A DNA stretch of 37,229 bases from NCBI GenBank assembly GCA_946482595.1, contig CAMLSD010000050.1, positions 1-37,229 on the forward strand, in the 5' to 3' direction. The translations under genes and the position numbers were made by a program. Under the pieces are notes generated by a model. It was not told where the DNA came from, made no database searches, and saw nothing but the letters and a program-made list of their open reading frames with translations. This DNA is from an uncultured Comamonadaceae bacterium (GTDB lineage Bacteria > Pseudomonadota > Gammaproteobacteria > Burkholderiales > Burkholderiaceae). Positions 1,382 to 36,846 of this stretch are shown piece after piece; within the stretch, counting starts at the first letter, position 1; the number at the start of each line of letters is the position of its first letter.

Positions 1382-2824
1382 ATGCAGTTCGACCACGAAA
1401 CCCTGGACGCACTGCGGCGGCAGCACCCGGCTTGGCGCCTGCTCCAGGCTGATTCGGTCGCATTGGTGGCCAGCTTTCTGCATGCGGTTTTCGTGCTACC
1501 CAATCGCCGCAGCATCTCGCAGGCCGATCTGGCCGAAGCGCTGGAAGACACCCTGTTTGCCGTGCGCGAGCAGCGCGGCGAGCACCTCTATCCCAAGGCT
1601 GCCGTCGAGTACCTCAACGACTGGGCTGCGAACGACAAGGGCTGGCTGCGCAAGTTCTACCCCGCCGGTTCGGACGAACCGCATTTCGATCTCACGCCGG
1701 CGACAGAGCGGGCACTGGCCTGGCTCGACAGTCTGGGGCAACGACAGTTTGTCGGGACCGAATCGCGGCTGTTGACCCTGATCGACCTGCTGCGCCAGAT
1801 GAACGAGGGCAGCGAGGCCAACCCAGACGTGCGTGTTCAGGAGCTGTTGCGCCGACGCGAGGCGATCGATGCCGAGATCGAGCGCGCACGTGCCGGTGAG
1901 CTCAACCTGCTCGACGACACGGCTTTGAAGGAGCGCTTCACGCAGTCCACCGGCCTGGCGCGCGAACTGCTGGCCGACTTTCGCGAGGTGGAGCACAACT
2001 TCCGCAGCCTGGACCGCACCGTGCGCGAGCGCATCGCGTTGTGGGATGGCAGCAAGGGTGCGCTGCTGCAGGACATCCTGGGCGAACGTGATCTGATTGC
2101 CGAGTCCGATCAGGGGCGCAGCTTCCGCGCGTTCTGGGACTTCCTGATGTCGCATGCGCGCCAGGACGAGCTCACGGGTCTGCTTCAGCACGTGCTGGCA
2201 CTCGAGCCAGTGGCAGAACTCGACCCGGACCCCCGCCTGCGCCGTGTGCACTACGACTGGCTCGAGGCCGGCGAACATGCGCAGCGCACAGTGGCCATGC
2301 TGTCTCAGCAACTGCGGCGTTTCCTCGATGATCAGGTTTACCTCGAGAACCGGCGCATCATGGACATCCTGCACCGCATCGAGGCGGGCGCACTGGCGGT
2401 GCGCAAGGCACCGCCTTTGGGCGAGTTCTGCCGCATCGACGACATCGCCCCCGACATCGACCTGCCCATGGAGCGGCCGCTGTACGCGCCGGCCTGGAAG
2501 CCCGTCCTCAAGGGCGGTGCCGTGCAGGCTGGCGACGAGGTCGATGACACGGGCGCGCTCTACAGCCAGCTTGTGGTCGACAAGGCCGCGCTGGCCGATC
2601 ATGTGCAGCGCATGCTGCGCCGCCGCAGCCAGGTGACCTTGCCCGAACTGATCGAGGGTCGACCGCTGCAGCAGGGCCTGGCCGAACTGGTGGCCTACCT
2701 GAGCCTGGCCACCGAATCGGGCCGGGCCGTGTTCGACGAGACTGTCGAGGACGAAATCGCCTGGGTGGGTGCCGAGGGGCAGCAGCGCCGTGCAAAGCTG
2801 CCCCGTGTGATCTTCTCGCGTTGA
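1382..2824 (+). CDS. jetA: Wadjet JetA (DUF3375 family, kleisin-like)
   Basis: This 480-residue protein matches the DUF3375 family in length, N-terminal style (a helical segment with LRRQHPAWRLLQAD) and gene order. In Wadjet systems JetA is the MukF-like kleisin that bridges the SMC heads of JetC and binds JetB. The complex extrudes DNA loops and exposes small circular plasmids to cleavage by JetD. The protein is mostly helical, with no signal peptide or membrane segment. The ATG at 1382 is chosen because it gives the usual family length. It ends two bases before the jetB ATG, which implies translational coupling. Identification rests on family resemblance together with the intact ABCD order, so confidence is high. 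Confidence 0.9.
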   Translation: MQFDHETLDALRRQHPAWRLLQADSVALVASFLHAVFVLPNRRSISQADLAEALEDTLFAVREQRGEHLYPKAAVEYLNDWAANDKGWLRKFYPAGSDEPHFDLTPATERALAWLDSLGQRQFVGTESRLLTLIDLLRQMNEGSEANPDVRVQELLRRREAIDAEIERARAGELNLLDDTALKERFTQSTGLARELLADFREVEHNFRSLDRTVRERIALWDGSKGALLQDILGERDLIAESDQGRSFRAFWDFLMSHARQDELTGLLQHVLALEPVAELDPDPRLRRVHYDWLEAGEHAQRTVAMLSQQLRRFLDDQVYLENRRIMDILHRIEAGALAVRKAPPLGEFCRIDDIAPDIDLPMERPLYAPAWKPVLKGGAVQAGDEVDDTGALYSQLVVDKAALADHVQRMLRRRSQVTLPELIEGRPLQQGLAELVAYLSLATESGRAVFDETVEDEIAWVGAEGQQRRAKLPRVIFSR

Positions 2825-2826
2825 CC

Positions 2827-3468
2827 ATGACTCTCGAACCACTCACCTCACCCCATGTGCCGCGCGATGACACCGACGCGGCCGATCTGTCGTCCGTGCT
2901 CATTCCGCTGCTCAAGGGCGTGACCTACCGTCACAACGATCCGGCGCACTGGCAGGTGCTCGTGCAACTGCAGCCCCGCGTGCGCGACCATGTGGGTGTG
3001 CTGGGTCTGGATCTGCTGCTCGACGAAGCTGAGGGTTATGCCTTCCTGCGCTCAAAGCCGGAGGCCGACGGCGATGCGCCGCGCAAGCTGCCGCGGCTGG
3101 TGGCTCGCCGGCCGTTGTCCTTTCCGGTCAGCCTGCTGCTCGCACTGTTGCGCAAGAAGCTGGCCGAGTTCGACGCCGTGGGCGGGGACACCCGCCTGAT
3201 CCTGTCACGTGCCGAGGTGGCTGAACTGCTGCGTGTGTTCCAGCCCGAAGGGACCAACGAGGCGCGGCTGGTCGACCAGGTCGACACCCATCTCAATCGC
3301 ATTGCCGACATGGGTTTCGTGCGCCGACTGCGCGGCAGCGACGACATGTTCGAGGTGCAGCGCATCCTCAAGGCCTTTGTCGACGCGCAGTGGCTGGCCG
3401 AGTTCGACGCGCGCCTGGCGGCCTACCGGGCGCAACTCGAAGGCAGGGAGCCGGTCGATGAGTCCTGA
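2827..3468 (+). CDS. jetB: Wadjet JetB (DUF4194 family, KITE/MukE-like)
   Basis: This 213-residue protein has the DUF4194 pattern: an early DPAHWQ segment, a LLLDEAEGYAFL motif near residue 65-75, and winged-helix-like segments ending around FVRRL and FEVQRIL. JetB is the MukE-like KITE subunit that dimerises and binds the JetA kleisin. The ATG at 2827 lies just after the jetA stop. A TTG at 2821 in the same frame would overlap jetA but adds only two residues. The 3' end overlaps the jetC start by 11 bases, so the two are probably translationally coupled. Confidence 0.88.
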   Translation: MTLEPLTSPHVPRDDTDAADLSSVLIPLLKGVTYRHNDPAHWQVLVQLQPRVRDHVGVLGLDLLLDEAEGYAFLRSKPEADGDAPRKLPRLVARRPLSFPVSLLLALLRKKLAEFDAVGGDTRLILSRAEVAELLRVFQPEGTNEARLVDQVDTHLNRIADMGFVRRLRGSDDMFEVQRILKAFVDAQWLAEFDARLAAYRAQLEGREPVDES

Positions 3469-6400
3469 CATGGCTGCACCACGCAGCACGCTGGACTCCC
3501 CGCCCCCCGACACACAGGCTGGCTTCAGGCTGAAGCGCCTGGAGGTCTACAACTGGGGCACCTTCGATGGTCGCGTCTGGAGCCTGCATGCCGACGGCGG
3601 CAACGTGCTGCTCACTGGAGACATCGGTTCGGGCAAGTCCACGTTGGTCGACGCGGTGACCACCCTGCTCGTGCCGGCCCACAGGGTGGCCTACAACAAG
3701 GCCGCAGGGGCTGAAACCCGCGAGCGCTCATTGCGCAGCTACGTGTTGGGCCACTACAAGGCCGCGCGCAATGATCTGGGTGGTGCCGGGCGGCCGGTGG
3801 CCCTGCGGGGTCCCCAGGACCATGCCGTGATCCTGGCGGTGTTCCACAACGCGGCCTATGGCCAGACGGTGACACTGGCCCAGGTGTTCTGGCTCAAGGA
3901 CCCGCAAGGCCAGCCTCAGCGGCTCTATGCCATCGCCGAGCGTGAGCTGTCGATCGCCCGCGACTTCGCCGACTTCGGTGCCGACATCGCACGCCTGCGC
4001 AAACGGCTGCGGGCAGCCAAGGTCACGCTGGAAGACAGCTTTGCGCCCTATGGAGCGCTGCTGCGCCGGCTCTTCGGCATCCACAACGATCAGGCGCTGG
4101 AGCTGTTCCATCAGACCGTGTCGATGAAGTCGGTGGGCAACCTGACCGACTTCGTGCGCAGCCACATGCTCGAGCCGTTCGAGGTGGCACCGCGACTGGC
4201 CGCGCTGATTGCCCACTTCGACGACCTCAACCGTGCGCACGCGGCCGTGCTGAAGGCCCAGGCCCAGGTGGCGATGCTCGAACCGCTGGTGGCTGATGGC
4301 GACCGCTACGCCGAGCTGGCACAGTCCGTCGAGCAGCAGCGAGCCGCGCGCGAAGCGTTGGGCAGCTACTTTGCTGCGCTCAAGCTCACGCTGCTGGCCC
4401 AGCGCCTGGAGCACCTGTCGCACGACCAGGCGCGGCATGCCTCCACCATCGATCGGCTGGGGGAACAGCTCCAGGCCTTGCACCTGCGCGAGCGCGCGTT
4501 GCGGCAGGACATGGCCAGCAGCGGCGGGGAGCGGCTGGAGCGGCTGGCGCTCGAGATGCTGGCCATCGAAGCCGAAAAGACCCGCCGCCAGGCCAAAGCC
4601 GAACGCCACGAGGCCCTGCTGCAGACGCTGGGTCTGCTGAGCATGCATGGGCCGCAGGACTTCCAGGCGCAGCGCCACCTCTGCGCGCCGCTGCGCGAAG
4701 CTGCCGCTGAACGCGAGGCCGTGCTGCAGAACGATCTGAATGAGCTGGGTGTGAGCTTTGCACAGGGGCGCGAGGAGCTGGCCGCGGTGCAGGGCGAACT
4801 CGACAGCCTGCGCCGCCGGCGCAGCAACATCGATGCCCAGCAGGTGAGCCTGCGCGCCGCCCTGTGCGATGCCCTCGGACTGCGCGAGGCCGACATGCCC
4901 TACGCCGGTGAACTCATACAGGTGCGCGCCGACGAACGTGACTGGGAGGGCGCTGCAGAGCGCCTGCTGCGAGGGTTCAGTCTGTCGCTGCTGGTGCCCG
5001 ATGCGCAGTACGGCGCGGTCAGCGACTGGGTCGACCGCACCCAGTTGCGCGGGCGGCTGGTGTACTTCCGTGTGCGCCCCACACGACGCGATGTCCGTGG
5101 CGAACTGCCGCCGCTTCACACGGAGTCGCTGGTTCACAAGCTCGAGGTCAAGCCGGACAGCCCCTTCAGCAGCTGGGTCGAGCGTGAGCTGGCCCACCGG
5201 TTCGATCTGGCCTGCTGCAGCCACGGTGACCAGTTCCGCCGTGAGGCACGCGCCATCACCCGGGTGGGGCAGATCAAGGCGCCGGGCGAGCGCCACGAGA
5301 AGGACGACCGCCACCGTATCGACGACCGCAGTCGCTACGTCCTGGGTTGGAGCAATCACGCCAAGATGGCCGCGCTGGAAAACAAGGTGCGTGTCCTGCA
5401 GGCTCGCCTGGCCGACATGGGCCAGCGACTTGCTTCACTGCAGGACGAGCAGCGTGCCGAGCGCGCCCGTCTGCAGGCCCTGGACAAGCTCGAGGAATAC
5501 CGCGACTACACCGAACTCGACTGGCGCGCCTGTGTGGCTGAGCTGGCGCAACTGGCGGCCGAGCGCGAACGCCTGGCGCAGGCGTCCGACCGGTTGCAGC
5601 TGCTGGCGTCGCAGCTCCAGGCGGTGGAGGTCGAACGCGACGAGACCGCTGCAAGGCTGAAGCAGCGCGAGGCCGAGCAGGCTCAGACGCTGCTGAAGAT
5701 CAGCCAGGCCGAGGCCCTGCAGGCACAGACCCGACAGCGCCTGGACACACCCGAGGCGCAGGCCCATGCGAGCCACCACGAGTCGATCGCCCGCTGGCGC
5801 GAGCAAGCGCTGGGTGAGCACAGCCTCAGCGTCGAGTCCTGCGATGGCCGCGAACAGGAGCTGCGGCGCTGGTTGCAGGAGCGCATCGACGCGGATGACC
5901 GGCGCCTCGCTCGTCTGGGCGAGCGCATCGTGCGGGCGATGACCGAATACAAGGAAGCGTACAAGCTCGAAACCCAGGAGGTCGATGCCAGCGTCGATGC
6001 CTGCCACGAGTACCGCGCCATGCTCGCCCAGCTGCAGGCCGACGACCTGCCGCGATTCGTGAGTACCTTCAAGCAGATGCTCAACGAGAACACCATCCGT
6101 GAGGTGGCGCATTTTCAGTCGCAGCTCTACCGCGAGCGCGAAACCATCAAGGAACGCATCGACCGCATCAACGAGTCACTGACCCAGATCGACTACAACC
6201 CCGGCCGCTACATCCGCCTGGAAGAACAGCTCACCACCGACGCCGAGGTGCGCGACTTCCAGACCGAGCTGCGCGCCTGCACCGACGGTGCCCTCACCGG
6301 CTCGGGGGATGCGCAGTACGCCGAGGCGAAGTTCCTGCAGGTGCGGCGTCTCATCGAGCGCCTGCGCGGCCGTGAGGGCTCCACCGACGCCGACCGTCGC

Positions 6401-31384: not shown

Positions 31385-31414
31385 GGGCATCACAGGGCAT
31401 CACAGGGCATCACA
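31385..31414. repeat. Three perfect 10-bp tandem repeats (GGGCATCACA)
   Basis: Copies lie at 31385-31394, 31395-31404 and 31405-31414, immediately after the stop of the AraC-type gene and running into the last codon of the convergent HipA-like gene. They could vary in copy number. I see no hairpin in them, so a terminator role is not supported. Confidence 0.9.
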
Positions 31415-32789
31415 CCTGATCGGCCAGGGCGGCGAGCCGGTCATGGTTGGACTGGCAGATGGCCCGGAACGCCGTGCTGATGCGCTTGTCGCGGGCAGCT
31501 TCATGCCAGAACGCGAGGGCGGCGGCGCAGGCTGTCTGCCACACGGCCCGCTGGGGCGGCAGCGGCGCAGGCGGCGAGAACTCGCGCTCGGGCACCTCGC
31601 CGCCGGGCAGCGGCGCGTAGCGCATCGGCAGCATGTCGTACACGGGGGCCGGCACCAGCGGTGTGCCGGGGCGAAAGCTCAGGTTGCCGGGATGCATGTC
31701 GGTGTTGGCGATCAGCCGGCCGTACCACCACAGCCGTTCGACGCCGAGTGCGTGTGCCGGTTCGAGCAGCCCCAGCCCGATCAGGCGTTGCGCCAGCCGT
31801 GTCCAGTCGGTCGAGCCGTCGCCGACCAGCGCGGCATTCACCGTGCCCAGGCTGCACAGCGCGCTGCGGCCGTGCAGGCCGTGCCGGTCAAACCGCTCGA
31901 TCTCGAGGAAGGTGCGGCCCGCATGCATGACGATGCGGGTGGCAGCCACCGCCGTGTCCGGCAGGCGTGACGCGCCCTGCACGGCCAGGTGCTCGGCCAC
32001 CAGCAGATCCGACCAGCGCTGCACGGTGGCCGATCTGTCGGCCCCCGAGAACTTCACCAGCACGTGCGGTGTGGCCTGGCCCTCACGCTCGCGCAAGGCC
32101 GTGAACTTCGGAAACTCGCCAGCCGCGCTGGAGCCGGCGACCCCGCTGGCCACGGCCTGCTCGGCCAGCCGGGCATAGGCCGGCCCGAGCGCGGTGTCAT
32201 CCAGCGGCGCGGCGTGCTGCAGCTTGTGGGCCAGCCAGCGTTCAACCGATTCATTGCCGAGCACCAGATTGCCGCTGGTGTCGTGGCCGTGGCGGCTCAG
32301 GGCCACCAGGACGTCGTCGTCCGACCATTCGTCGAGCTGGTCGGGCACGCTCAGGTCCCGGTGCAGGGAACGCGCGAACTGCCGACCCATGTAGCCCTGC
32401 GGCCGCATGTCGTGCAGCGGATAGGGCAGGCCGTCCCACCAGCCGTCGCGTGATGCTTCGGGCACCGGCCAGGCAGTGGGGCTCAGGTCGAGATGGGTGC
32501 CTTCGGGATGGATGGGCACCAGGGTGCCGAGCGGGTGGGCCTGGCCGGCCTGGTCGACCTCGTAGAGCGGCAGGTCAGCCGGCGCACCACGCAAGGGTCG
32601 ACGCAGGGCATGGCGCGCTCGGCGCGCCCGGCCCGCGCTCAGCACCTGTTCGCGGGCCTCGGCCAACATGCGGTGCAGCGTGGGCACGCTCACGCCCAAC
32701 TCGGCTGCCAGCGCCGTGGCCGCCATCGGGCCGCGCCGGGCCAGCACCACGGCGAGCTGGTCGCGGGCAATCTGTTTGCGGGGTCGCAT
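31410..32789 (-). CDS. yjjJ: YjjJ-type HipA-like kinase with fused HTH
   Basis: A 459-residue protein combining a DNA-binding domain and a HipA-like Ser/Thr kinase, as in E. coli YjjJ. Residues 1-50 form a helix-turn-helix (LAAELGVSVPTLHRMLAEA). The kinase part has the loop GSSAAGEFPKF (219-229), the nucleotide-binding lysine in LVKFS (K246), the catalytic NTDMHPGN (362-369, D364) and metal-binding PVYDMLPM (D385). All look intact. HipA kinases inactivate targets such as glutamyl-tRNA synthetase and cause growth arrest. The fused HTH stands in for a separate HipB antitoxin. A good sigma-70 promoter and a pair of repeats lie directly upstream. Its relation to the peptide cluster upstream is unproven. 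Confidence 0.85.
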   Translation of the reverse strand: MRPRKQIARDQLAVVLARRGPMAATALAAELGVSVPTLHRMLAEAREQVLSAGRARRARHALRRPLRGAPADLPLYEVDQAGQAHPLGTLVPIHPEGTHLDLSPTAWPVPEASRDGWWDGLPYPLHDMRPQGYMGRQFARSLHRDLSVPDQLDEWSDDDVLVALSRHGHDTSGNLVLGNESVERWLAHKLQHAAPLDDTALGPAYARLAEQAVASGVAGSSAAGEFPKFTALREREGQATPHVLVKFSGADRSATVQRWSDLLVAEHLAVQGASRLPDTAVAATRIVMHAGRTFLEIERFDRHGLHGRSALCSLGTVNAALVGDGSTDWTRLAQRLIGLGLLEPAHALGVERLWWYGRLIANTDMHPGNLSFRPGTPLVPAPVYDMLPMRYAPLPGGEVPEREFSPPAPLPPQRAVWQTACAAALAFWHEAARDKRISTAFRAICQSNHDRLAALADQV

Positions 32790-32887: not shown

Positions 32888-33403
32888 TCAGCTGTCCAGC
32901 GCGTCGAACACCCATTCGCCCAGCTGGGCTGCGACCCGCAAAGTGGCCAGTGGCCGCACCGGCTGCAATGCCACGAACTCGTCGCCTTGCGCCTCGGCAA
33001 ACGCCGTCATCGGCAAGGCATAGACATGGCCGTCGGTCAACACGCAGGGTTCGCGCCGGCGCAGCAGCGCGGCCAGTTCGGCACTGGCTTGCAGGTGGCG
33101 GGTGGTGCCCTCGATCCGGTAGGCCACACGGTAGGAGCCGAGCGTGGCCTGCAGGTAGGGGCGGTTGAGCACGGCATGCAGCAAGGCCACCTCGACATTG
33201 CGGCTGGCATACAGGCCCAGCATGTTGCCGCTGGCCTTGGCCGCGTCGTTGGCTTGGCGCGGCTCCAGCCGCTCCAGGGCGGGCCAGGCGCTGCTGCCGT
33301 GCAGCACACAACCGCCGCTGCCGACCAGCGCCGCGCAGATCGCACGCACCCGGGCCGGGTCGTCAGCGCGCAGGTCGGCATGCAGCGCACGCATGACGGT
33401 CAC
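32888..33403 (-). CDS. Small protein, possibly ADP-ribosyltransferase-like
   Basis: 171 residues, no signal peptide. The pattern CVLHGSSAWPALERLEPRQ, then GLYAS followed by a helix, then DEFVALQPV near residue 150 places a His, a Tyr and a Glu in the order of the H-Y-E triad of diphtheria-toxin/Tpt1-like ADP-ribosyltransferases. That fold assignment is inference from a faint pattern and could be wrong. The GTG start at 33403 overlaps the HD-protein stop by four bases (GTGA), the usual sign of coupling. ATG 33394 in frame is an alternative. It is the last gene of the predicted peptide operon, so it could modify the peptide, a target, or confer immunity. Confidence 0.6.
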   Translation of the reverse strand: MTVMRALHADLRADDPARVRAICAALVGSGGCVLHGSSAWPALERLEPRQANDAAKASGNMLGLYASRNVEVALLHAVLNRPYLQATLGSYRVAYRIEGTTRHLQASAELAALLRRREPCVLTDGHVYALPMTAFAEAQGDEFVALQPVRPLATLRVAAQLGEWVFDALDS

Positions 33404-34029
33404 AGGCGGTAGTGGCGCAGCCGTTCGGGCAGTGGCTGCGGCTCGCACGAGGCCGACCACAGCCCCATGTGGCGCGCCACCCGGGCCACCGCAGTCCATG
33501 GGTCGTGACGGTAGTCGGGATGCGCCTGGCTGGCGTGGCACAGAAAGGCCGCAGCGTCGACCAGCGTGGCGGCCGACTCGGTGCGCAGCAGCTGCACGTT
33601 CAGGTGGCCAGGCCCGAGGCGGACCCGGTCGAGTGCATCGGCGTCCTTCAGGCAGGCCAGCTCGGGTGGCATCGAGGGTGCGGCGGCATCGGCCGGCACA
33701 TGCCATTCGCAGCACCAGCCGACAAGCGCACGCCGCACCGGATCCCAGTCGTGCAACCTGGGGCAGGCGCCGCTGTCGATCCAGCTGCGGCAGCGTCGAC
33801 CGTGGGCAGGGTCGCGCCCGTCGTCGAGGCGGCGCACGTCGTGCAGCACCGCGCCCTGGCGGGCCACATCGATGTCCACCCGCTGGCCCTTGGCCCGTTG
33901 GTATCGGCCGATCACGCCGGCCCAGACCAGGACCCGGGCCGCATGGCCCATGCCGTGCAGGCCGCAGGCATCGTGCAGGTAGCAGCGCGGGTCGGGCCGC
34001 CAGGCGTCGAGTCCGTCGTCGAGGGCCAT
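33400..34029 (-). CDS. HD-domain protein in the peptide-maturation operon
   Basis: 209 residues with the ligand order of an HD metal-dependent phosphohydrolase. HGMGHAARVLVWAGVI gives H25 and H29, GAVLHDVRRLDDG gives H63 and D64, and H76 and H110 lie in between. ACLKDADALDRVRLG gives D129/D131. Such proteins cleave phosphate from nucleotides or related molecules. I know no established role for an HD protein in RiPP maturation. It starts seven bases after the HExxH gene and overlaps the next gene by four, so it clearly belongs to this operon. The region 76-110 is Cys-rich (C80, C89, C106, C107). Confidence 0.72.
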   Translation of the reverse strand: MALDDGLDAWRPDPRCYLHDACGLHGMGHAARVLVWAGVIGRYQRAKGQRVDIDVARQGAVLHDVRRLDDGRDPAHGRRCRSWIDSGACPRLHDWDPVRRALVGWCCEWHVPADAAAPSMPPELACLKDADALDRVRLGPGHLNVQLLRTESAATLVDAAAFLCHASQAHPDYRHDPWTAVARVARHMGLWSASCEPQPLPERLRHYRL

Positions 34030-34036
34030 GGCGGGC

Positions 34037-35341
34037 TCAGTGGTCCAGGGTGTCCAGCGTGTCCAGCCGATCGGCCAGCGGCTGGTAGAGGCCTCGTCCC
34101 AGGGCGGTCAGGGCCGGGTTGTCGCGCAGCGGTTCGTCCAGCGCCTGCACCGCGGCGCGCAGGTCCGGCAGGTTGGCACGCACGTAGAAGCTGTCCTCCA
34201 CATCGGGGTGGGGCTGGCGGCGCACGCCGTCGTACAGCAGCATCACGTTGGCCAGCGCGTGATAGGCCATCAGGATGCGGCTGAGCGGGCGGTGCCGGCG
34301 GATCGGGGGTGACCAGTACAGGGTGGTGTCGCTGGCATCGTCCACCGGCCCCACCTGCTGCAGCATGTAGAAATACTGGTGGGCCGACTCGTGCACCATG
34401 ATCTCGGCCACATCGATGCCGGGGTGCGGGCTGGAGACATGCACATAGCCGGGTACGTCCTCCCAGCTGCCGCTGACCTGCCGGAACTGCGCCTGCAGCG
34501 GGCACACCACCAGGCCCTTGAGCACCCGCTCGACCCACGGCAGGTACTGCGGCGCATTGCGTTGCAGCGCATCGAAGCCGGCGTGCAGCGAGCGCAGCAT
34601 GTCCGGCGTCAGTGACACCACGGGATCGCAGGCCTGGAACACCTCACCCCCAGGCTGCTGCAGCGGCAAGGCGCTGCGTGTCAGCAGCAGCACGTGGCGG
34701 CCATGGCCCACATGCTGCAGCGCATACGCGTGATCCGGTGCGGTCGGTGACGTGAAGCGCCACGCGGATTGCGGCGCTTCACGCCGGCACTCGATCGGCA
34801 GCTGCCCGCTGCGGTGCAGCCGCACGGTGGCGCAGCCGTTGTGCGCGCCCTGGGCGTCGACGGCCACCACCCCTTCAACGGCCAGCTCGCCGATCAGCAG
34901 CGTCGTGGCCGGCAGTCGGGCGGTCCAGCTGGCCGCGCGCCCGGCGTGCAGCAGGCACAGGCCGATGCGCACCGCGGCGTCCAGCGGGTCGACCTGCCCT
35001 TCCTTGAGCGCGAGGTGGGCCCGTCCGAAGGCGTGGTCCCATCCGGCGCGCGCGGGCAGCGGGGTGTCCAGGCCCTGGCGGATGTCCCGGGTCAGTCCGT
35101 CGCTGGCCGCATCGATGCGCGGGCCATGCTGGTTCAGCAGCCAGGTCGCCACGCCGCTGTCGTAGGCCGAGACGATGGTGTCGAACAGGGCGTCGGGGGC
35201 GGGGTCGGTCGGCAGGCTGAAGCTGTCGGTCCAGGCCGGTGTGCTGGTGCGCGGCTTGCGATGCAGCTCCGGGCAGCCGCCGGAGGGCGTCACGGGCCGG
35301 CCGGTGACAGGCGGTGTCAGCTGGGGTGTGCTCAGGCTCAT
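34037..35341 (-). CDS. HExxH protein, alpha-KG-type peptide beta-hydroxylase candidate
   Basis: A 434-residue protein with a central HESAH metal motif at residues 317-321 (IMVHESAHQYFYML). A further likely ligand is H361 in AYHALANVMLLYDG. This layout is that of the 'HEXXH motif' family found beside FxsB-type radical SAM enzymes, for which alpha-ketoglutarate-dependent peptide beta-hydroxylation has been described. It might hydroxylate residues of the precursor encoded at 36619-36846, although a protease role cannot be excluded from sequence. The start at 35341 overlaps the radical SAM stop by four bases (ATGA). A long frame further upstream is antisense-style overlap with that gene. Residues 1-45 are Pro/Thr-rich and probably disordered. 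Confidence 0.75.
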   Translation of the reverse strand: MSLSTPQLTPPVTGRPVTPSGGCPELHRKPRTSTPAWTDSFSLPTDPAPDALFDTIVSAYDSGVATWLLNQHGPRIDAASDGLTRDIRQGLDTPLPARAGWDHAFGRAHLALKEGQVDPLDAAVRIGLCLLHAGRAASWTARLPATTLLIGELAVEGVVAVDAQGAHNGCATVRLHRSGQLPIECRREAPQSAWRFTSPTAPDHAYALQHVGHGRHVLLLTRSALPLQQPGGEVFQACDPVVSLTPDMLRSLHAGFDALQRNAPQYLPWVERVLKGLVVCPLQAQFRQVSGSWEDVPGYVHVSSPHPGIDVAEIMVHESAHQYFYMLQQVGPVDDASDTTLYWSPPIRRHRPLSRILMAYHALANVMLLYDGVRRQPHPDVEDSFYVRANLPDLRAAVQALDEPLRDNPALTALGRGLYQPLADRLDTLDTLDH

Positions 35342-36549
35342 GGGGTGGCCTCCATCAGGTCGGTGGCGTGTGCGGGGGCGTCCAGTTCGGCCCGCAGTTG
35401 CGGCGGCAGGTCGGTGCGCAGCGCGCGCAGCATGCGCTCGGACAGCGCATACAAGGCATCGCAGTACAGCGAGGTGTTGTCGAAGTGGATGCCGTTGAAG
35501 CGGTGGGGCAGGTAGCCGCCGCCGCAACTGGCCAGGTGAGGGCAGGCCCGGCATTGGGCGCAGACCTGCTGCAGGGTCTCGATGCGGTAGCGGTGCACAT
35601 GTTCGTCCAGCGGATGGTCGAACAGGTTGATCACGTCGTGCGCGTACTCGCCGCCGCACAGGCGGGCGACGTCGTTCACACCGACCGAGCCGTCGGACTC
35701 CACCACACACAGCAGCCGCAGGTCGCCCCCCAGCGCGTCGAGGTAGACCTTGCCGCCGAGCAGGCCGGAGATCATCAGCTCGAACTTGCGGATCTGCGGC
35801 GCGCGTGGGCCCATCGCATACCAGCGTTCGAAGGCGCTGAGCAGGAAGCGTCGGTAGGGCGCCACGCCGGTCCATCCCTGGGGCGGGTTGATGTGATTGC
35901 CCTGCGGCAGCAGCAGGTCGAAGGCATCGAAACCCTGGTCGGCAAACCACTGCACCAGCTCGCCGCCGTCCATCTCGGGGTTGACCACGCACAGGCAGCC
36001 GCTGAAGAAGCGGTCGAACAGCGGGGTGCTGCGCCGCAGCCGCGCGATGATGTCGAGCAGGGCCTGGGTGGATCCACCGCCCTTGCGCATCACGCGGAAG
36101 CGGTCGGCGAACTGCGGCGGACCATCCAGGCTGATGCCGAAGCCGATGTCGTTGCGTGCCAGCAGTTCGACCCATTCCTCGTCGAGCAGCAGGCCGTTGG
36201 TCTGCATGCTGAAGCGCAACCGGGTGGCATGCACCTCGGCCTGCATCAGGTCGACCAGTGCCTGCATGCGCCGTTTGCCCAGCAGCAGTGGCTCGCCGCC
36301 GTGCAGCTCGATCGTGAAGCTGTTCAGGTCATGCCGCTGCGCGTGTTCGTTGATGCGGTACGCAAACTGGCGCAGCACGCGCTCCGAGATCACCGGCGGG
36401 CGCGTCTGCCAGGAGTCGTCGCCGCGGTTGTAGACATAGCAGTAGGTGCAGTTCAGGTTGCACTGCTGAACGACCTTCAGGATGGCCTGCCGGACCACGG
36501 CGCCGGTGGGCGCCCGGTGGTTGTCGGCGGGTGCGATGCGCTGATCCAT
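35338..36549 (-). CDS. Radical SAM/SPASM peptide maturase (FxsB-like)
   Basis: A 403-residue radical SAM enzyme. The 4Fe-4S ligands are C30, C34 and C37 (CNLNCTYCYVY), followed by the SAM-binding GGEP at 84-87 and SMQTNGLLL. The SPASM part has C281, C298, C330, C333, C336, C342 and C363, enough for two extra clusters. The CYVYNRGDDSW context resembles FxsB-type enzymes that make side-chain-to-backbone or ring-crosslinked peptides. The partner peptide is probably the 75-residue product of the next gene upstream, separated by a hairpin. Start is ATG 36549. The exact chemistry is unknown. Confidence 0.88.
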   Translation of the reverse strand: MDQRIAPADNHRAPTGAVVRQAILKVVQQCNLNCTYCYVYNRGDDSWQTRPPVISERVLRQFAYRINEHAQRHDLNSFTIELHGGEPLLLGKRRMQALVDLMQAEVHATRLRFSMQTNGLLLDEEWVELLARNDIGFGISLDGPPQFADRFRVMRKGGGSTQALLDIIARLRRSTPLFDRFFSGCLCVVNPEMDGGELVQWFADQGFDAFDLLLPQGNHINPPQGWTGVAPYRRFLLSAFERWYAMGPRAPQIRKFELMISGLLGGKVYLDALGGDLRLLCVVESDGSVGVNDVARLCGGEYAHDVINLFDHPLDEHVHRYRIETLQQVCAQCRACPHLASCGGGYLPHRFNGIHFDNTSLYCDALYALSERMLRALRTDLPPQLRAELDAPAHATDLMEATP

Positions 36550-36581
36550 GTGCGTGCTCCGGCAATGCCGCTGTCAGGGAT

Positions 36582-36611
36582 CGGTCCACCCGAGCGGCCG
36601 CGGGCGGACCG
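36582..36611 (-). promoter_or_regulatory. Hairpin between precursor and maturase genes
   Basis: Positions 36582-36592 pair with 36601-36611 over 11 bp, all Watson-Crick except one G-U pair in the RNA, around the 8-base loop 36593-36600. It begins seven bases after the precursor stop. No U-run follows, so it probably attenuates read-through or protects the 3' end of the precursor mRNA, giving more peptide than enzyme. That arrangement is common in RiPP operons. Confidence 0.65.
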
Positions 36612-36618
36612 TCGGGGG

Positions 36619-36846
36619 TCAGGGTTGAGAGCGCACGCGCTGGGCCAGCTGGGTCTGCAGTTCCAGGATCTGGGCCTGCAGGTCGGCAGCCTTGCTGTGG
36701 TTGGAGTGGTTGCTGCTGTGCGAGTCGTGCACCGAGGCCACGCCCTGGTCGAGCTTGGCCTTGGTCTGCACCGCGATGTTGCGCAGCACTTCGTTGTGGA
36801 TGGCGACCAGGTCGTCCAGGCTGGTCTTGGATAGGTCGATGGGCAT
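36619..36846 (-). CDS. Putative RiPP precursor with His/Ser/Asn-rich core
   Basis: 75 residues starting MPIDLSKTSLDDLVAIHNEV. ATG 36846 has a good AGAGGTGA ribosome site just upstream. The first ~38 residues look like a helical leader. Residues 38-52 (SVHDSHSSNHSNHSK) hold four histidines at 40, 43, 47 and 50, each followed by short Ser/Asn/Asp stretches. Residues 53-70 (AADLQAQILELQTQLAQR) are again a heptad-like helix. There is no secretion signal and no FxSxx end as in FxsA peptides. Its place as first gene before a radical SAM enzyme and a HExxH protein supports a precursor role. Direct proof is lacking, and a DNA- or protein-binding helper is an alternative. Confidence 0.7.
   Translation of the reverse strand: MPIDLSKTSLDDLVAIHNEVLRNIAVQTKAKLDQGVASVHDSHSSNHSNHSKAADLQAQILELQTQLAQRVRSQP

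Follow-up and report, generated by a model that had tools for sequence, protein, structure and literature searches.

The operon

The window considered here is a stretch of 37,229 nucleotides from an uncultured Comamonadaceae bacterium (contig CAMLSD010000050.1). Its positions 32888 to 36846 contain five genes, all on the minus strand. They encode the precursor of a ribosomally synthesised and post-translationally modified peptide (RiPP), a radical S-adenosylmethionine (SAM)/SPASM enzyme, a protein with a HExxH motif, a protein of the HD superfamily and a protein resembling ADP-ribosyltransferases (ARTs). The operon is real, conserved and rare. It is beyond chance, since homologs exist for each of the five genes and other genomes keep their order. 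The identities of the genes are established at the level of family or fold, and so are the operon structure, the conserved linkage and the conserved catalytic residues.

A check of the open reading frames (ORFs) bore out the layout given in the first-pass annotation, in strand as well as in coordinates. The precursor (36619–36846) has 75 residues, with a leader of the pattern ...DLSK.S...L..I...VLR..A and the core HDSHSSNHSNHS. It is followed by the gene of a cyclophane-synthase-like radical SAM/SPASM enzyme (35338–36549, 403 residues), that of a peptide beta-hydroxylase of the α-ketoglutarate (aKG)-HExxH type (34037–35341, 434 residues), that of a phosphodiesterase- or phosphohydrolase-like HD protein (33400–34029, 209 residues) and that of a putative ART with a His-Tyr-Glu triad (32888–33403), which comprises 171 residues if read from GTG 33403 or 168 if read from ATG 33394. 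The last four genes are as tightly spaced as had been claimed. The radical SAM and HExxH genes overlap by four bases (ATGA), and seven bases separate the HExxH gene from the HD gene. The HD and ART genes overlap by four bases (GTGA), if the in-frame GTG is the start, or leave a gap of five bases, if it is the ATG.

The radical SAM and HExxH enzymes

The radical SAM protein is of the cyclophane-maturase type. Its CxxxCxxC motif and the SPASM cysteines C298, C333, C336, C342 and C363 are invariant in the 12 radical SAM proteins compared. Among the NCBIfam models YhhB (NF041707) scores best (289.6 bits, cut-off 445); FxsB (TIGR04269) comes second (284 bits, cut-off 370), and XyeB is also resembled below its cut-off. 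Membership in the YhhB or FxsB family was rejected on these scores. The nearest relative by sequence in the PDB is the radical SAM domain of ChlB (9gm3, E 3.1e-57).

The HExxH protein clearly belongs to TIGR04267, the aKG-HExxH peptide beta-hydroxylases (98.1 bits, cut-off 40). Its matches in the PDB are 22nu (E 0.0042), which bears the name 'Radical SAM core domain-containing protein', and, weakly, ChlH (8s5f, E 0.027). H317, E318 and H321 are common to its relative from Rhodococcus. Most likely, to judge from these relationships, the protein is a hydroxylase. A role as protease was set aside because of the TIGR04267 match and the published account of ChlH, which is reported to hydroxylate Asp/His.

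The first-pass annotation had seen in these two enzymes a known RiPP pairing of the FxsB type. The pairing as such stands, namely as that of a cyclophane synthase with an aKG-HExxH beta-hydroxylase. The FxsB label does not: YhhB scores higher, ChlB is closest and the FxsB cut-off is missed. FxsB systems, which end their peptides in FxSxx-COOH, are also associated with a HExxH domain, as that comparison implied, and FxsB is the second-best model; the precursor of the window, however, does not end in FxSxx. Another reference is ChlBH of Chlorogloeopsis, where ChlB is a radical SAM enzyme making multiple cyclophanes and ChlH an aKG-HExxH hydroxylase. The radical SAM protein of the window resembles ChlB, the HExxH enzyme falls into the same domain family, and the His and Asp of the core fit the Asp/His hydroxylation reported for ChlH. 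In contrast to ChlBH, the two enzymes are encoded by separate genes, an HD and an ART-like protein are added, and the precursor family is a different one. The third reference is the group of triceptide maturases YhhB and HaaB, the three-residue cyclophane-forming enzymes (3-CyFEs). YhhB is reported to make three-residue cyclophanes in which Tyr and His are cross-linked to Arg (PMC11002830). Comparable Tyr/His-x-x units occur in the cores of the present family, yet the maturase of the window stays below the YhhB cut-off.

The HD protein

The Pfam HD model is matched at E ≤ 1 by 29 of the 30 family members; the protein of the window reaches 14.4 bits, which is below the cut-off of 22. H25, H29, H63, D64, H76 and D129 are invariant in all 30 sequences, H110 nearly so, and the metal-binding pattern H..HD..D (H29, H63, D64, D129) is accordingly complete. 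With the residues of the two preceding enzymes, this bears out the earlier statement that the Cys and His ligands are intact.

With the structural model (predicted local distance difference test, pLDDT, 93.5), SidE/Dup phosphodiesterase domains and HD hydrolases come out at the top. In a Foldseek search, 7 of the first 10 matches are SdeD (DupB) or DupA, a similarity at the level of fold. The first 22 matches of the VIA search comprise 16 Sde, SidE, Dup or phosphodiesterase (PDE)-ubiquitin entries, two with no title beyond 'Legionella effector', three of lpg1496 and one of 2pq7. The PDE domains of SidE and Dup proteins are phosphodiesterases that act on ADP-ribosylated or phosphoribosylated ubiquitin. 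The family model of the SidE-type PDE (PF12252) was matched by just one of the 30 HD proteins, at E 0.11, and this was not the one of the window. In SidE, a mono-ADP-ribosyltransferase (mART) is coupled to the PDE to make phosphoribosyl-ubiquitin, as stated in two papers (PMC10143409, PMC6941232).

The likeness to the mART-PDE ligases of the SidE family and to DupA and DupB of Legionella would consist of an ART and an HD-like PDE working in series with NAD+, and of the top fold matches of the HD model. There are differences, too. The pair in the window is made of two separate small proteins without a sequence link to SidE and with an intact HD ligand motif; moreover, it is part of a bacterial operon with peptide maturases, whereas SidE is an injected effector.

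A distant HD homolog is found on a Paenibacillus plasmid (L032, 1680–6226), within a run of genes for a Sir2-type protein, a nicotinate phosphoribosyltransferase and an isochorismatase, i.e., in a context of NAD salvage. Another homolog (P0066) has 350 residues; its N-terminal part of about 180 residues belongs to no notable Pfam family and, by eye, recalls the beginning of ART-like proteins.

The ART-like protein

H32, Y62 and E139 are invariant in an alignment of 67 family members, one of which (P0010) stops short of E139. In the model (pLDDT 92.5) each of the three residues resides on a strand (29–34, 59–64 and 139–142, respectively), and His, Tyr and Glu come in the order expected of an H-Y-E ART. 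The first four Foldseek matches are ARTs, the first three of them Arr, with weak statistics (best E 0.076, 14–18% identity). Most matches in the VIA search are ARTs, too. Over both searches Arr and PARPs are at the top, and the statistics are weak. Curated ART family models matched neither the protein of the window nor any of the 67 members; DUF6886 was weakly matched by 17 of the 67 (best E 0.0053), and a sequence search of the PDB with the protein yielded nothing.

Arr, the rifampin ADP-ribosyltransferase, is a compact ART that modifies a hydroxyl group of a natural product. Its relation to the protein of the window consists in its leading place in the Foldseek results, and the similarity does not go beyond the values just given. 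The ART-like family counts at least 462 proteins at E ≤ 0.001. Members are also encoded in metagenome-assembled genomes (MAGs) of Candidatus Taylorbacteria and Veblenbacteria, and one relative (P0168, 344 residues) is fused to an HD_4 domain.

The precursor family

The precursor has no match in NCBIfam. Its core contains aromatic-x-x units, as they are found in precursors adjoining 3-CyFE genes. A Rhodococcus plasmid (L001, Rhodococcus sp. DMU1) encodes a radical SAM enzyme of 58% identity, a HExxH protein and a precursor of 65 residues with the same type of leader and core. Two peptide patterns derived from this pair were used to scan a collection with one genome per species (84,980 species), which yielded 15 loci. 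In 11 of the 15 a precursor could be located by tblastn or, in L006 and L010, by eye. At L011, L013, L015, L017 and the plasmid locus L002 tblastn, which alone was used there, found none; these loci stay outside the motif count. The set of 14 precursors, i.e., those of the 11 loci, the window, L001 and L026, was picked by precursor homology, and all 14 contain the core motif (Y/H)DxHxSxH. The 12-residue core of the window recurs identically in a Paracoccaceae MAG (L016).

The core also appears to vary with the gene content. All five ART-bearing systems have the core HDSH(G/S)SNHSN, which is found in none of the nine systems lacking ART (eight searched as whole genomes, L001 as a 13.1 kb locus). 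In the latter the motif starts with Tyr in eight cases and with His in one (L010). For His as first core residue versus ART presence, Fisher's test gave p = 0.003 by locus, 0.14 by distinct core and 0.07 by lineage. That the ART reads the precursor core is only hinted at, because the covariation was noticed after the fact. The locus with the deviating His belongs to a Mesorhizobium MAG (1926–4247) and consists of a precursor with HDRHYSNHS, a radical SAM gene and a diverged HExxH gene (TIGR04267 28.9 bits, below cut-off); the whole genome of this MAG contains no ART.

Distribution of the HD and ART genes

The first-pass annotation had made its case depend on linkage of the HD and ART genes to the maturase in other genomes. 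Such linkage was found. The full set of five genes in the same order is present in the window and in a single further genus, with three genomes: an uncultured Burkholderiales MAG (L003), Oxalobacteraceae IMCC9480 (L004) and G435 (L026). The genus is presumably Actimicrobium. Since G001, G002 and G435 belong to a single genus group, in which three of four genomes have the ART, the full set has to be counted as one lineage plus the window. In the tree of radical SAM proteins, that of the window and those of the three Actimicrobium-type loci stand together (89/99, not starred), while Paludibacterium and Collimonas form another group (96/96).

In the Paracoccaceae MAG G011 (L020), the next gene after that of the HExxH protein, about 35 bases on, is an ART gene, with no HD gene in between. 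Precursor and start of the radical SAM gene lie at the end of another contig of this MAG (L016), and the two contigs probably hold parts of one operon. The ART gene thus comes after HD in one genus and right after HExxH in G011. L020 forms a long branch of unsure placement in the ART tree.

Altogether, ART was found in the whole genomes of 3 of the 11 radical SAM loci (G001, G002 and G011). The wider samples, where for many genomes the scoring covered just a portion of the first-look candidates, returned known genomes only: 1 of 399 in the order and 1 of 369 in the class of G002, both times G002 itself, and 1 of 248 in the family of G011, again G011 itself. All four whole-genome ART matches (G001, G002, G435, G011) are hence located in the operon of the HExxH gene. 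A radical SAM search in the family of G011 gave 0 of 248 at E ≤ 1e-90, which is uninformative, as G011's own radical SAM gene is cut off by the contig end.

The HD protein is less confined. At E ≤ 1e-6 the model found none in the nine genomes G003–G011, while it did match in another sample. In the family of G002 it matched 5 of 392 genomes; three strong matches lie in the full operons of one genus, and two weak ones are unlinked. Three of 251 Chloroflexota genomes contain homologs of 38–45% identity. The flanks examined of these three, of the two weak and of the Paenibacillus homologs hold no relatives of ART, radical SAM or HExxH proteins, and HD proteins of this family thus also occur outside the operon. 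The Tateyamaria genomes (three loci) contain neither HD nor ART, and the same holds for the Rhodococcus cluster, where the search covered a locus of 13.1 kb. Relatives of HD and ART also form four putative pairs on contigs of exactly equal size (95552, 7238, 6369 and 2188 bases); this pairing is known from the equal sizes, and in the 95552-base pair the gene numbers are consecutive (ACI9ZF_001056/001057). In Ralstonia solanacearum both families were seen in protein-level searches.

Other clusters have other genes at their ends. In Paludibacterium and Collimonas a second TIGR04267 protein (41.9–47.9 bits, cut-off 40) occupies the position of HD and ART (L005 12284–13360, L006 3231–4346, L007 12236–13411). 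In Rhodococcus (L001 8243–9295) a caspase-like protein (NF047832 39.5 bits, cut-off 140) is encoded convergently to the HExxH gene.

The surroundings of the operon

About 100 bases past the ART stop, on the same strand, lies a gene with a HipA_C domain (31410–32789). It is probably separate and was left out, because inspection by eye of the ORFs that follow the L026 operon, where no family search was made, revealed no gene of this kind, and because the region's one promoter-like site lies between it and the ART gene. A composition island was not evident, the kilobases of the operon having 67–72% GC against 70–73% in the adjoining ones. Nor did the operon turn out to be a known defence system: PADLOC offered viperin models for the radical SAM protein (best E 4e-14) and matched none of the other four at E ≤ 0.1. 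A phage-borne origin was likewise dismissed, as scans of viral contigs gave three weak radical SAM matches and no relative of ART or HD. A plasmid scan yielded no ART and one HD match.

A possible pathway and its rivals

Probably, as the gene families indicate, the cluster knots a short peptide by cyclophanes and hydroxylates it. HD and ART may in addition decorate this peptide with a piece of NAD. Tentatively, with a probability of roughly 0.38, we propose that the operon makes a small ribosomal peptide which is matured in four steps; substrates, reactions and their order are what we infer from the gene families. In the first step, the radical SAM/SPASM enzyme would close one to three three-residue C–C cyclophanes in the core HDSHSSNHSNHS, the candidate units being H-D-S, H-S-S and H-S-N. 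The HExxH enzyme, dependent on aKG and iron, would then beta-hydroxylate the core Asp and/or His, as is reported of ChlH. The ART-like protein could use NAD+ to put ADP-ribose on the core once it is matured, with a His or the new hydroxyl group as a conceivable site. Finally, the HD protein may cut the pyrophosphate of the attached ADP-ribose to yield AMP and a phosphoribosyl peptide or, alternatively, pass the phosphoribosyl group to a Ser. The last two steps would be analogous to the mART and PDE pair of SidE/Dup proteins. A bolder version is a complete SidE-like relay, in which the ART would activate the cyclophane-bearing, beta-hydroxylated peptide with ADP-ribose from NAD+ and the HD protein would draw on the pyrophosphate to make a phosphoribosyl-Ser bond. 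If the Ser belonged to the peptide, a new macrocycle would result; if it belonged to a protein, the peptide would act as a ubiquitin-like tag. This we regard as a long shot.

Of course, ART and HD could have nothing to do with maturation. They might be an NAD-linked pair of their own, serving as toxin and antidote or for self-protection (the ART modifying a target in the cell, the HD protein reversing or limiting this), to which the peptide cluster is linked for immunity, signalling or defence. The VIA matches indeed include several toxins with an ART fold, the occurrence of the wider family in Candidatus Taylorbacteria and Veblenbacteria could be seen in the same light, and the convergent caspase-like gene after the Rhodococcus cluster could fit the use of the core in a conflict system. 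An ART without its HD in the Paracoccaceae MAG, however, speaks against such a pair; PADLOC recognised neither protein at E ≤ 0.1, both genes are tightly coupled to the maturases, and the precursor core co-varies, if weakly, with the presence of ART. The idea is unlikely.

Slightly less credit still is given to a division of labour in which the ART modifies the peptide, while the HD protein serves house-cleaning or regulation as a phosphohydrolase of free nucleotides, comparable to YpgQ or 2pq7 and acting, e.g., on ADP-ribose or breakdown products of NAD. Here the extent of the structural match is at odds with the idea: the PDE domains of SidE and Dup align over 185–195 of the 209 model residues, 2pq7 over 147. 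Metal-wise, the HD protein could even be an oxygenase with two irons, as are PhnZ and MIOX, since H29, H63, D64, H76, H110 and D129 could hold two metals and oxidative tailoring would suit the operon; the ART-like protein would then be a non-catalytic peptide binder or another transferase. Yet the top matches of the HD model are phosphodiesterases and phosphohydrolases, several invariant Arg and Lys residues would suit phosphate, and the triad of the ART is conserved. PhnZ and MIOX are absent from the VIA matches listed, which carries no weight either way. This proposal is highly improbable.

Significance

The core chemistry, a triceptide-type RiPP with aKG-HExxH hydroxylation, is known; the partner pair of HD and ART is new. 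The open-licence PubMed Central literature was searched for RiPPs with ADP-ribosyltransferases, phosphoribosyl groups or conflict systems and, in the portion retrieved, disclosed no case of a RiPP cluster combined with a pair of ART and HD, in line with the earlier statement that no characterised system of this kind was known. To our knowledge, no NAD-derived phosphoribosyl modification of a RiPP has been described, and a SidE-like relay would be the first. It would, if true, be a native bacterial counterpart of effector chemistry and provide a compact two-enzyme pair of ART and PDE outside pathogens to study such a relay. The uncharacterised ART-like family would obtain a function, and NAD+ would become a building block of ribosomal peptide natural products, whose cyclophanes and beta-hydroxyl groups would be joined by ADP-ribosyl or phosphoribosyl groups.

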